This document shows positions 37,774 to 58,534 of a DNA stretch of 64,000 nucleotides, piece by piece. The stretch's first letter is position 1. Every line of letters starts with the position of its first letter. Below the pieces are notes generated by a model that made no database searches, was not told the DNA's origin, and worked only from the letters and a program-made list of their open reading frames with translations. This DNA is from Nitrospirota bacterium (lineage in GTDB: Bacteria > Nitrospirota > Thermodesulfovibrionia > UBA6902): the NCBI GenBank assembly GCA_016215115.1, contig JACRLN010000040.1, positions 1 through 64,000 of the forward strand. The letters are read 5' to 3'. The position numbers were made by a program, and so were the translations under genes.

Positions 37774-37851
37774 GATCGAAAGAGTGAAAGCGCAAAAGTC
37801 AAAAGTTCAGAAGCGCGGAAGTGCAGAAGTACAAAAATCAAAAGAGCAGAA
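37774..37851. repeat. Degenerate octamer array, about 10 units
   Basis: gatcgaaa-gagtgaaa-gcgcaaaa-gtcaaaa-gttcagaa-gcgcggaa-gtgcagaa-gtacaaaa-atcaaaa-gagcagaa. Confidence 0.88.
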
Positions 37852-37874
37852 GGGCGTATGGCATATGCCCTGCA

Positions 37875-52781: not shown

Positions 52782-54092
52782 ATGAGTAAAGTTGCGACAT
52801 TTGAAAGAGGCATTCACCCAAAGTATAATAAGGAATTTTCCTCTGGTAAATCTATCACCCAGGCAAAACCGCCTCAAAGAATAGTTGTTCCCCTCAGTCA
52901 GCACATCGGGGCTCCTGCAAAATGTGAAGTAAAAATCGGAGATGAAGTCAAAAGGGGACAAATTATAGGTTCTCCATCAGGTTTTGTATCCGCGCCCGTT
53001 CATTCATCCATTTCAGGGAAAGTAATAGCAATAGCCGATTTCCCAACAGCGGTCGGAAGGATGGTTAGTTCAGTGGTTATTGAGAGTGATGGAAAAGATG
53101 AAGCTGTTGCATTAAAGGAAAATCCCAATTATATGAATCTCACCGCTGACGAAATCAAGGTTATGATAAAAGATGCGGGAATAGTCGGGATGGGCGGCGC
53201 TGCATTCCCGACAAACGTGAAACTTTCTCCGCCGAAAGAAAAACCTATAGATACTGTAATTCTCAATGGAGCGGAGTGCGAGCCTTATCTCACTGCCGAC
53301 CACAGGCTTATGGTCGAGCGCCCCAAAGAAGTAATTGAAGGTTTAAAGATCATTATGAAGGCGCTTGGCGTGAAAGAAGGCCATGTAGGAATTGAAGAAA
53401 ATAAACCCGATGCCATAGAAGCAATGAAGTCAGCAGCTTCCGGTGAGCCGGATATTGAAATTCATTCGCTTGAGATAAAGTATCCGCAGGGCGCTGAAAA
53501 GATGCTTATAAAGGCGATAAAGAACAGGGAAGTTCCGAGCAAGGGGCTTCCGATGGATGTCAGCGTTGTAGTACAGAATATCGGCACGGCGCTTGCAATT
53601 TATGAAGCGGTGAGGTATGGCAAGCCTTTGATGGAAAGGGTGGTTACTGTTACGGGTAAAGGAATTAGAGAACCCAAAAACATGTTGGTGCGTATCGGAA
53701 CTCTTCTGTCGGATGTTGTTGAACAATGCGGCGGTCTTGCTGACGGTGCGGTAAAAGTGATTTCCGGTGGTCCCATGATGGGATTTGCGCAATGGACTCT
53801 CGATGTTCCGGTAACAAAAGGCACGTCTGGGATTCTGGTTCTCACAGAAGATGAATATGTTGCCTCTGATGAATATTTCCCGTGCATAAGATGCGGAAGA
53901 TGCGTTGATGTATGTCCCATCGGACTTAATCCTTCGATGTTAAGTATTCTATCAGAAAAAGGGTTTTATGAAGAGGCAAAGGACTATAACCTTTTTGACT
54001 GCTTTGAATGCGGCTCGTGTGCTTATGTCTGCCCGGCCAAGAGGCCTATGGTGCAGTTTATGAGGCTTGCGAAGTCGCAGGTGAAACCGTGA
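52782..54092 (+). CDS. rnfC: Electron transport complex subunit RnfC
   Basis: FERGIHPKYNKEFSSGKSI; two 4Fe-4S motifs CIRCGRCVDVCP, CFECGSCAYVCP. Confidence 0.96.
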   Translation: MSKVATFERGIHPKYNKEFSSGKSITQAKPPQRIVVPLSQHIGAPAKCEVKIGDEVKRGQIIGSPSGFVSAPVHSSISGKVIAIADFPTAVGRMVSSVVIESDGKDEAVALKENPNYMNLTADEIKVMIKDAGIVGMGGAAFPTNVKLSPPKEKPIDTVILNGAECEPYLTADHRLMVERPKEVIEGLKIIMKALGVKEGHVGIEENKPDAIEAMKSAASGEPDIEIHSLEIKYPQGAEKMLIKAIKNREVPSKGLPMDVSVVVQNIGTALAIYEAVRYGKPLMERVVTVTGKGIREPKNMLVRIGTLLSDVVEQCGGLADGAVKVISGGPMMGFAQWTLDVPVTKGTSGILVLTEDEYVASDEYFPCIRCGRCVDVCPIGLNPSMLSILSEKGFYEEAKDYNLFDCFECGSCAYVCPAKRPMVQFMRLAKSQVKP

Positions 54093-54096
54093 AGAA

Positions 54097-54128
54097 GTGC
54101 AAAAGTGCAATAGCGTAAAAGTGCGGAA
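54097..54128. repeat. Octamer array gtgcaaaa-gtgcaata-gcgtaaaa-gtgcggaa
   Basis: Read directly in the rnfC-rnfD spacer; followed by ggggcgaggcggtgcctcgccc hairpin. Confidence 0.85.
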
Positions 54129-54175
54129 GTAGGGGCGAGGCGGTGCCTCGCCCTCATCAGAAGAAAGGTTGGTAA

Positions 54176-56485: not shown

Positions 56486-56492
56486 AATATTG

Positions 56493-56621
56493 AACCACAG
56501 AGAACACTGAGAGAAATAGAAGATGAGAAGATGGAAGAAAAAATATTTTTTGTCTTTTCTCAACTTCCTAACTTCTTATCTTCTCAACTGCTTTTATTCA
56601 CACTCTATGACCTCTGTGGTT
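56493..56621. mobile_element. MITE-like palindromic element between rnfE and rnfA
   Basis: Terminal AACCACAGAG / CTCTGTGGTT; internal period-8 array caacttcc-taacttct-tatcttct-caactgct. Confidence 0.65.
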
Positions 56622-56644
56622 AAAAAGATACAGGAGAAAAAATT

Positions 56645-57232
56645 ATGGATTTTAACAAACTTTTTCAGCTAATAGTAGCCGCATCATTAATAAACAATTT
56701 TGTCTTTACAAGATTCCTCGGTTTGTGCATTTTCTTCGGCGTCTCAAAAAAGATGGAGACCGCTGTTGGAATGAGCATAACATTTACCGCGGTCATGGTG
56801 ATAAGCTCGGCTTTGAGCTGGGTGGTTTTTAAATATATAATGGTGCCTCTTGATATAACGTTTCTCAAGATAATTGTTTTTATCGGGATCATTGCGGCAT
56901 TTGTTCAGTCTGCCGACACAATTATGAAAAAAATGAGTCCTTCGCTATATTACAAACTCGGCATCTACCTTGCGCTGATTACCACAAATTGTATAATCCT
57001 TGCGGTCCCCTTGATAAACTCAGGGGAGGGATACAGTTTCCTGGAAAGCATGGCATTTGGCGTTGGCTCGGGACTCGGTTTTGCGCTTGCACTTGTTATT
57101 ATGGCGAGTATTCGTGAGAAACTGGAATTAGCCGACATACCGGCGCCTTTCAGAGGACTGCCGATATCATTTATCATAGCCGGACTTATTGCGCTGGCAT
57201 TTACAGGATTTTCGGGATTGATAACGCTGTAA
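56645..57232 (+). CDS. rnfA: Electron transport complex subunit RnfA
   Basis: AASLINNFVFTRFLGLCIFFGVSKKMETAVGMSI. Confidence 0.96.
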   Translation: MDFNKLFQLIVAASLINNFVFTRFLGLCIFFGVSKKMETAVGMSITFTAVMVISSALSWVVFKYIMVPLDITFLKIIVFIGIIAAFVQSADTIMKKMSPSLYYKLGIYLALITTNCIILAVPLINSGEGYSFLESMAFGVGSGLGFALALVIMASIREKLELADIPAPFRGLPISFIIAGLIALAFTGFSGLITL

Positions 57233-57235
57233 GAA

Positions 57236-57416
57236 GTGCAAAAGCGCGGAAGTGCAATAGTGCAAAAGCAGAAAAAAAGTTTTAAAATATTATTGCTGAT
57301 AAAAAATAAAGGAAGACAAATGCTTAACGATTTAATAAATAAAAGACCAAACCTTCCAACTTCTGCACTTTTGCTCTTCTGTACTTTTGTTCTTTTGCTC
57401 TTTTGCACTTCTGTTC
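57236..57416. repeat. Inverted pair of octamer arrays at the rnfA-rnfB junction
   Basis: 57236-57267 gtgcaaaa-gcgcggaa-gtgcaata-gtgcaaaa; 57361-57416 ttctgcac-ttttgctc-ttctgtac-ttttgttc-ttttgctc-ttttgcac-ttctgttc. Confidence 0.92.
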
Positions 57417-58534
57417 TTTATGCCGGTGTCGGCGCCGGAGTTGAGGCAAGGGAATCGGTAAATCTTATTGAAGTGTTAGAGTTCACAGCAATATTCCTGG
57501 CTGGAATAAGCGCTGTCTTTGGAGTTGGGCTTGCCTTTGCTGCCAAGAAATTTGCAGTGCAGGAGGACCCTCGCATTGATCAGGTATCAGAGGTTCTCGC
57601 TCATGCACACTGCGGCGCATGCGGTTTTGCAGGTTGCAGGCAGTATGCGGAGGCGGTTGTGTTAAGACCGGAGGTTGCGCCGAATCTTTGCACTCCGGGC
57701 GGGAAGGCTTCTGCGGAAGCAGTCGCAAAAATCACAGGGAAGGTAATGGCTCAACTTGAACCAAAGATTGCAAGGGTATTCTGCCAGGGAGGAATGTCAA
57801 AATCTGTGCGCAGGTTTAAATATGAAGGGATAGCAGACTGCAGGGCTGCAATACTTGCAAGCGGAGGTGACAAGGCATGTATTTACGGATGTCTTGGATA
57901 CGGAACCTGTTTTCGTGCATGTCCGTTTGGGGCCATCACAATGAGCGAAGACAGCCTGCCTGTAATAAATCCGGCAAAATGCACAGCCTGCGGGAAATGT
58001 GCCCAGGCATGTCCTGTGAAAGTTATCGAAATACTCCCGATGGCAAAAGAGGTTTTAGTAAGATGTCATTCAAAGGACAAGGGGCCGGTCACAAAGAAGA
58101 ACTGTCAGACAGGATGCATTGCATGTGGAATTTGTGTGAAGGTTTGTCCCTATAATGCACCGAAGATTGAAAATTTTCTCTCAAGGATTGATCTTGATAA
58201 ATGTAAAGTCTGCGGCCTTTGTGTTACAAAGTGCCCTACAAATGCAATCATGGATTATATCCCCAAGAGACCGAAAGCATTTGTCACGGGAAAATGCATC
58301 GGCTGTCATATGTGCGCAAAGGTTTGCCCTGTAAATGCGTCGACAGGCGAACTCAAGAAACGGCATGTTATAAATCAGGACAAATGTATCGGCTGCGGCA
58401 TCTGCGCATCCAAGTGTCCTGTGGTTGCCATCACCGGCACATTTAACTATACCGAAATCCTGCAGGCATACGAAGCCAAAAAAGCTGCAAGAGAAAAGGC
58501 AAAAGCCGAGCAGCAACCGACTGCCGGCGTATAA
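57236..58534 (+). CDS. rnfB: Electron transport complex subunit RnfB with expanded ferredoxin region; start site uncertain
   Basis: EVLAHAHCGACGFAGCRQYAEAV plus multiple CxxCxxCxxxC motifs; ORF start lies in a repeat array. Confidence 0.92.
   Translation: MQKRGSAIVQKQKKSFKILLLIKNKGRQMLNDLINKRPNLPTSALLLFCTFVLLLFCTSVLYAGVGAGVEARESVNLIEVLEFTAIFLAGISAVFGVGLAFAAKKFAVQEDPRIDQVSEVLAHAHCGACGFAGCRQYAEAVVLRPEVAPNLCTPGGKASAEAVAKITGKVMAQLEPKIARVFCQGGMSKSVRRFKYEGIADCRAAILASGGDKACIYGCLGYGTCFRACPFGAITMSEDSLPVINPAKCTACGKCAQACPVKVIEILPMAKEVLVRCHSKDKGPVTKKNCQTGCIACGICVKVCPYNAPKIENFLSRIDLDKCKVCGLCVTKCPTNAIMDYIPKRPKAFVTGKCIGCHMCAKVCPVNASTGELKKRHVINQDKCIGCGICASKCPVVAITGTFNYTEILQAYEAKKAAREKAKAEQQPTAGV

Follow-up and report, generated by a model that had tools for sequence, protein, structure and literature searches.

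An in-frame octamer array probably encodes a lengthened signal-peptide core in RnfB of an uncultured Nitrospirota

Analysing a 64,000-nt stretch of DNA from an uncultured Nitrospirota (hereafter the window; genome G000), we found that an array of seven consecutive octamers (57361-57416, + strand) lies in frame inside the hydrophobic core of the RnfB N-terminus. Read directly in the rnfB frame, these seven 8-mers give TSALLLFCTFVLLLFCTSVLYAGVGAGVEA, the residues TSALLLFC-TFVLLLFC-TSVL, followed by YAGVGAGVEARES and then by the usual RnfB transmembrane (TM) segment, exactly as a first-pass annotation of this DNA had described. The best reading of the array is that of a signal-peptide core encoded by the repeat and lengthened, a variant of known signal peptides: judging from the sequence, and with a probability of about 0.7, it would be coding DNA forming the h-region of an ancestral signal peptide of Sec type, or signal-anchor, which RnfB has in a family of Thermodesulfovibrionia (Nitrospirota), lengthened here. 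In this way a repeat with a unit length not divisible by three would be kept in frame, three units equalling eight codons, which would illustrate how tandem repeats lengthen a signal peptide.

The 404-aa product scores above cutoff with the NCBIfam RnfB model NF005503 (E 3e-84, 282.6 bits vs a cutoff of 252) and with TIGR01944 rnfB (154 vs 68.7), carries an N-terminal TM before its Fe-S domains, and matches the solved RnfB chains 9eri_B and 7zc6_B, which align from query residue 51 or 62 onward, downstream of the array. The order of the surrounding ORFs, named by inspection, is consistent with rnfC-D-G-E-A-B. Since family models and solved structures begin at about query residues 49-62, the residues before that point form an extension of this family. 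The protein shares with RnfB of characterised Rnf complexes (PDB 9eri, 7zc6) a TM followed by a polyferredoxin domain, but its N-terminal extension, about 48 residues long and containing a signal-like segment, is missing from the solved chains.

Initiation of RnfB is most likely at ATG 57320 (rnfB, 57320-58534, + strand, supported by family models, PDB matches and the homologous start), downstream of a directly read Shine-Dalgarno-like AGGAAG (57310-57315, + strand). Counting codons from the V of VEARES, an upstream ATG exists in all ten genus members, at -32 in six, at -34 in one (L039) and at -40 in three long forms (G000, G031/L041 and G026/L042), so that ATG 57320 is homologous to the relatives' -32 start plus eight codons. 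The leader AGGAAGACAAATG is common to G000 and G031 (L041), and in some genus members (L044, for example) further ATGs lie closer, still upstream of the core. Given an upstream ATG with a Shine-Dalgarno-like motif at the relatives' conserved position, and 24-bp length steps in the genus, the 3' array is very probably translated. The description of the repeat as intergenic needs correction for the 3' array, which lies wholly downstream of the likely start.

It is very improbable, conversely, that the array is untranslated with an RnfB start below it, or that it acts as a phase-variation switch. Eight is not divisible by three, which means that gain or loss of a single octamer would change the reading frame, and GTG 57471 and TTG codons do occur downstream or inside; but GTG 57471 has no Shine-Dalgarno at the usual distance, and no in-frame ATG, GTG or TTG downstream is common to more than one of the ten genus species. 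The alternative start just below the array that the first-pass annotation had entertained was rejected on this ground, no start past 57416 being conserved within the genus. As for a switch, Tandem Repeats Finder called periods of 8, 16 and 24 with only about 75% matches between units, too degenerate for frequent slippage, and all relatives are in frame; with length differences of 24 nt only, and between species, the array falls outside phase-variable simple sequence repeats.

RnfB homologs from 36 other genomes belonging to the family, together with homologs from named genomes of GTDB, placed this segment in an evolutionary context. A hydrophobic N-terminus ending in YAGVG is present in 21 of 34 distinct homologs, among them those of all ten genus members; of five additional family members, four have it too. 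In the aligned N-termini, a signal-peptide-like form ending in LYA|GVGxGVE is shared by all ten genus species and by other genera, mostly with no array; MFDLNIIMKKTTFILTCALVLLCSSALYAGVGAG and MFKTPGKIKAALVTFALLLSCSTALYAGVGGG are examples lacking a long one. In the window it corresponds to codons 57320-57424 (+ strand, MLNDLINKRPNLPTSALLLFCTFVLLLFCTSVLYA), with both the hydrophobic core and the LYA|GVGxG junction conserved in relatives. Significant octamer resemblance is absent in several signal-type cores (L025, L029, L046), and none is seen by eye in two others (L207, L209). The array is therefore a particular encoding of a pre-existing core. The first-pass idea of an extra TM or signal segment co-opted from an intergenic repeat is supported as regards a translated segment of signal or TM type, and not supported as regards its being extra and co-opted: in relatives that lack a long array, an equivalent N-terminus is encoded at this position.

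Signal-type N-termini reach a maximal 12-residue Kyte-Doolittle hydropathy of 2.05-3.21 with a net charge of +1 to +4 before the core, whereas the corresponding values are 1.02-2.25 and 0 to -3 for the remaining homologs, which start with acidic or neutral, weakly hydrophobic residues such as MFDFNITKILTDIVHFISVFDVNQIPVPMLGVGGG. Like Sec-dependent signal peptides or anchors, the RnfB segment combines a positive n-region, a hydrophobic core, a small residue before the putative mature start and conservation; it differs from them in that its core is coded by a tandem octamer whose length varies between species by three-unit steps. A possible signal peptidase I (SPase I) site lies after Ala35. Ala occupies position -1 in all homologs of signal type; Leu at position -3, which SPase I accepts although it is not optimal, speaks against the reading. 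A lipoprotein signal was rejected by inspection, the Cys of LLFC following Phe with no lipobox. A variant of the preferred reading, compatible with its other parts, is that the segment stays uncleaved as an additional TM helix, giving a two-TM RnfB. The uncharged core of about 19 residues before LYA exceeds the usual signal-peptide core and is long enough for an uncleaved TM, and its 19-residue mean hydropathy of 2.48 is the highest of the set; yet the SPase I-like YA|GVG junction is kept in all homologs of signal type and the cores of the short forms have ordinary signal-peptide length, leaving this variant as a minority possibility to be taken seriously.

In the RnfB tree, signal-like and other N-termini interchange about five times, at least three of them on well-supported branches. 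In several genera (L049, L050, L052, L054-L056 and L060), a weakly hydrophobic N-terminus (MFDFNITKILTDIVHF...IPVPMLGVGGG) replaces the signal-like one, still with an MFDFN-like start and a GVGGG junction.

Length differences within the genus come in steps of 24 bp, that is, three octamers or eight codons. At the same place in the DNA alignment, the sequences of G000 and G031 exceed those of G023 and G024 by 24 bp (57380-57403, + strand, the exact placement being ambiguous), and G026 is separately 24 bp longer than its sister G027; these are only about two differences, ambiguous as to gain or loss. No 8- or 16-bp difference was seen among the compared genus members, as expected of a translated sequence. 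G000 and G031 are not neighbours in the RnfB tree, so that the long form common to both calls for recombination, a loss or imperfection of the tree itself. The octamer match of G000 (59/66 vs 45.4 expected) was equalled in none of 5000 synonymous-codon resamplings, and the same outcome (0/5000) was obtained for G031 and G026. The excess extends to G016 (p 0.00025) and G020 (p 0.0003), in which there are almost no other octamer copies.

The core is one 24-bp cycle longer in G000 and G031, and separately differs between G026 and G027; we propose as the mechanism replication slippage in a quasi-repeat, of which only three-unit steps would survive because smaller ones shift the rnfB frame. Three CTTYTGCW-type octamers make eight codons, which whatever the frame encode ALLLFC(T/S)S or one of its rotations, and tandem copies therefore yield a Leu/Phe/Cys-rich core automatically. 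The segment may direct export of a short N-terminus rich in Gly (GVGAGVEARES...), and the usual RnfB TM that comes next would put the iron-sulphur domain in the cytoplasm. The 5' half-array is a neighbouring member of a dispersed octamer family.

This family raises the question of whether the core is instead captured repeat DNA, a dispersed element having been inserted, or gene-converted, onto the signal-peptide codons. The pattern CTTNNGNN in three copies has 112 genome-wide matches in G000, while its reversed control has 5; the units in rnfB agree with T-rich members of the family, their frame cycle TSALLLFC is that of the 3' arm TSALPHFRTSAL within a HemD-type protein, a complementary 5' arm lies upstream of rnfB, and other genes also hold in-frame arrays. 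Against capture, G031 has the same long form with almost no dispersed copies (4 matches to the general octamer pattern vs 112 in G000), octamer periodicity also marks RnfB of genomes without such dispersed copies, and the rnfB arms are 84-93 nt apart, farther than those of the paired elements examined, which are separated by 0-45 nt. The excess periodicity in G016 and G020, together with the few copies in G031, favours local expansion over capture, which we consider unlikely. Somewhat less probable still is a bolder version, in which the RnfB core was born from, or repeatedly rebuilt by, the kind of octamer array that spreads in frame through the genes of this lineage. If true, a T-rich copy, reading LLLFCSSA in every phase, would be a ready-made export signal, and C-rich copies (TSELPNFR) would be tolerated inside soluble enzymes.

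A sense T-rich unit encodes LLHFCTFA or LLLFCSSA and a sense C-rich unit LPHFRTSA, and antisense arms are hydrophilic whether T-rich or C-rich. Position 5 is T in 5/66 units of sense arms within ORFs, in 41/114 antisense units within ORFs and in 101/243 intergenic units; sense arms differ from antisense and intergenic ones in per-arm tests (p 0.0016 and 3.6e-5), used because units within an arm are not independent. Sense arms inside ORFs thus avoid the hydrophobic T-rich unit, a signature of selection. The rnfB array has T at this position in 7/7 units, as expected where a hydrophobic product is wanted.

The 5' half-array (GTGCAAAA type, - strand) is complementary to the 3' array. First placed at 57236-57267, it is real, but more degenerate and slightly larger, running from the rnfA stop codon over 57229-57268; comparable sequence follows the rnfA stop in five other genus members. 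The inverted pairing reported for the two arrays was recovered as arms at 57232-57275 and 57369-57412, 44 nt long, 75% complementary and 93 nt apart. With five arms of 40-86 nt in the window and a single 24-nt arm in 15 first-order Markov copies of 64 kb taken together, the octamer arrays are confirmed as real and far beyond chance. The arms are predicted to form a long hairpin (57232-57412, + strand) enclosing the rnfB Shine-Dalgarno and start codon, the RNA fold of 57225-57425 reaching -50.1 kcal/mol (z -3.67 vs dinucleotide shuffles).

Such a structure might control rnfB translation by enclosing its ribosome-binding site. The strength of the predicted fold points that way, as does the fact that six genus members out of ten have a 5' arm with which the signal-peptide codons could pair. 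In the other four, however, there is no 5' arm and unrelated sequences occupy the gap; the Shine-Dalgarno and ATG fall in a large loop outside the main stem, and the array is coding in any case. A co-adapted hairpin was rejected, arms swapped between species pairing as well as own arms. Control by this predicted fold is accordingly improbable, and we take the hairpin for a side effect of two octamer arrays facing opposite ways, with a regulatory role no more than possible. Elsewhere (L038-L040, L044, L046, L051, L055) the rnfA-rnfB gap holds unrelated palindromic or 7-8 nt arrays, among them GGGTTCGA arrays and CCCCCTTT palindromes; since different species carry different repeats there, the gap is a recurrent repeat site.

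Beyond rnfB, pattern searches and 56 stretches of 1.9-4.5 kb served for the genome-wide counts of the octamer family. Six of the ten genus members, as well as G004, have the pattern in abundance; G009, G032 and G033 take an intermediate position, and the other genomes are close to background, the reversed control being itself high in some genomes (e.g. G008-G010). Many elements consist of two inverted arrays 0 to about 45 nt apart, and others are single arms. Among 66 array places in the 56 stretches, about 30 lie in frame inside ORFs, a few of which may be spurious. Many of these ORFs are apparently conserved enzymes, including in G000 Tgt (L167) and, at loci L152, L155, L157, L158, L169, L173, L175, L176, L181, L186, L187, L188, L196, L197, L198, L202 and L204, AroC, CarA, CarB, PyrC, PurL, LeuS, QueC, HemD-type and MoeA-type proteins, a type-4 UDG and several cobalamin enzymes, with names given by inspection of the translation and only AroC and Tgt checked against relatives. 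A typical array-coded peptide is RKRGSAEVRKCGSAEV...TSELPNFRTSEL, and enzyme-like ORFs gain peptides of the form RKRGSAEV...TSELPNFRTSEL. An apparent cobalamin biosynthesis cluster (G000:C41, ~45.7-66 kb; L157, L158, L196-L198) is densely interrupted by in-frame octamer elements, with two each in L196 and L197.

In Tgt (tRNA-guanine transglycosylase), the insert of G000 (L167:985-1103; G000:C52:94784-94902) lies between RWAKRCKEA and ALFGIVQGG. This site is a hot spot: in-frame inserts occupy it in 16 of the 29 family species where it is readable (orthologs L241-L269), the other 13 having a short site of 24-36 nt. They derive from at least four unrelated palindromic repeat families: period-8 arrays (G000, G026, G033), period-7 arrays of two families (G024, G029, G035 and G023, G032), C-run palindromes (G008, G009, G016-G018, G028, G030) and a GGGGCAGGC palindrome (G031). 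AroC is similar, with an in-frame insert in G000 as aligned to its relatives.

In-frame palindromic elements are best known from Rickettsia. The Rickettsia palindromic elements (RPE) are dispersed palindromic repeats found in frame in ORFs (reviewed in PMC10969869). The wider octamer family likewise shows, at Tgt and AroC, in-frame insertions in conserved genes with empty sites in relatives; it resembles RPE in architecture, the level at which the two were compared, as dispersed palindromes in frame in metabolic-gene ORFs with several families per lineage. It differs in that 7-8 nt units in inverted arrays make up the elements and in that the host is an uncultured group of Nitrospirota. For the array in rnfB, an RPE-like insertion is improbable; in relatives the signal peptide is shorter, by 24 nt, and not empty. 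With REP and MITE intergenic palindromes the family shares short, hairpin-capable inverted repeats in many intergenic gaps, but many octamer copies lie inside ORFs. The open-access literature, incompletely covered, yielded papers on Rickettsia and on REP/MITE and no report of in-frame octamer arrays in Nitrospirota. These elements in conserved enzymes are more surprising than the rnfB array and deserve their own study: the octamer and several unrelated 7-8 nt inverted arrays sit in frame in conserved enzymes, and the families differ by species at one site. In a lineage with many families and sequenced species, where inserts land, which of them are tolerated and whether any becomes useful turns into a testable matter.

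The window holds other repeats. Octamer arrays of the same family occur at 37775-37860 (- strand) and, as a half-array directly after the rnfC stop in the rnfC-rnfD gap, at 54090-54129 (- strand), the latter being followed by a GGGGCGAGGCGGTGCCTCGCCC palindrome before rnfD. The rnfE-rnfA gap (~56487-56630) contains an inverted element of another kind, AACCACAGAGAACACTGAG ... CTCTGTGGTT, with short repeats of AGAAGATG type between its arms, and flanks similar to this element (CCACAGAG...CTCTGTGG) surround octamer elements at L150 and L164.
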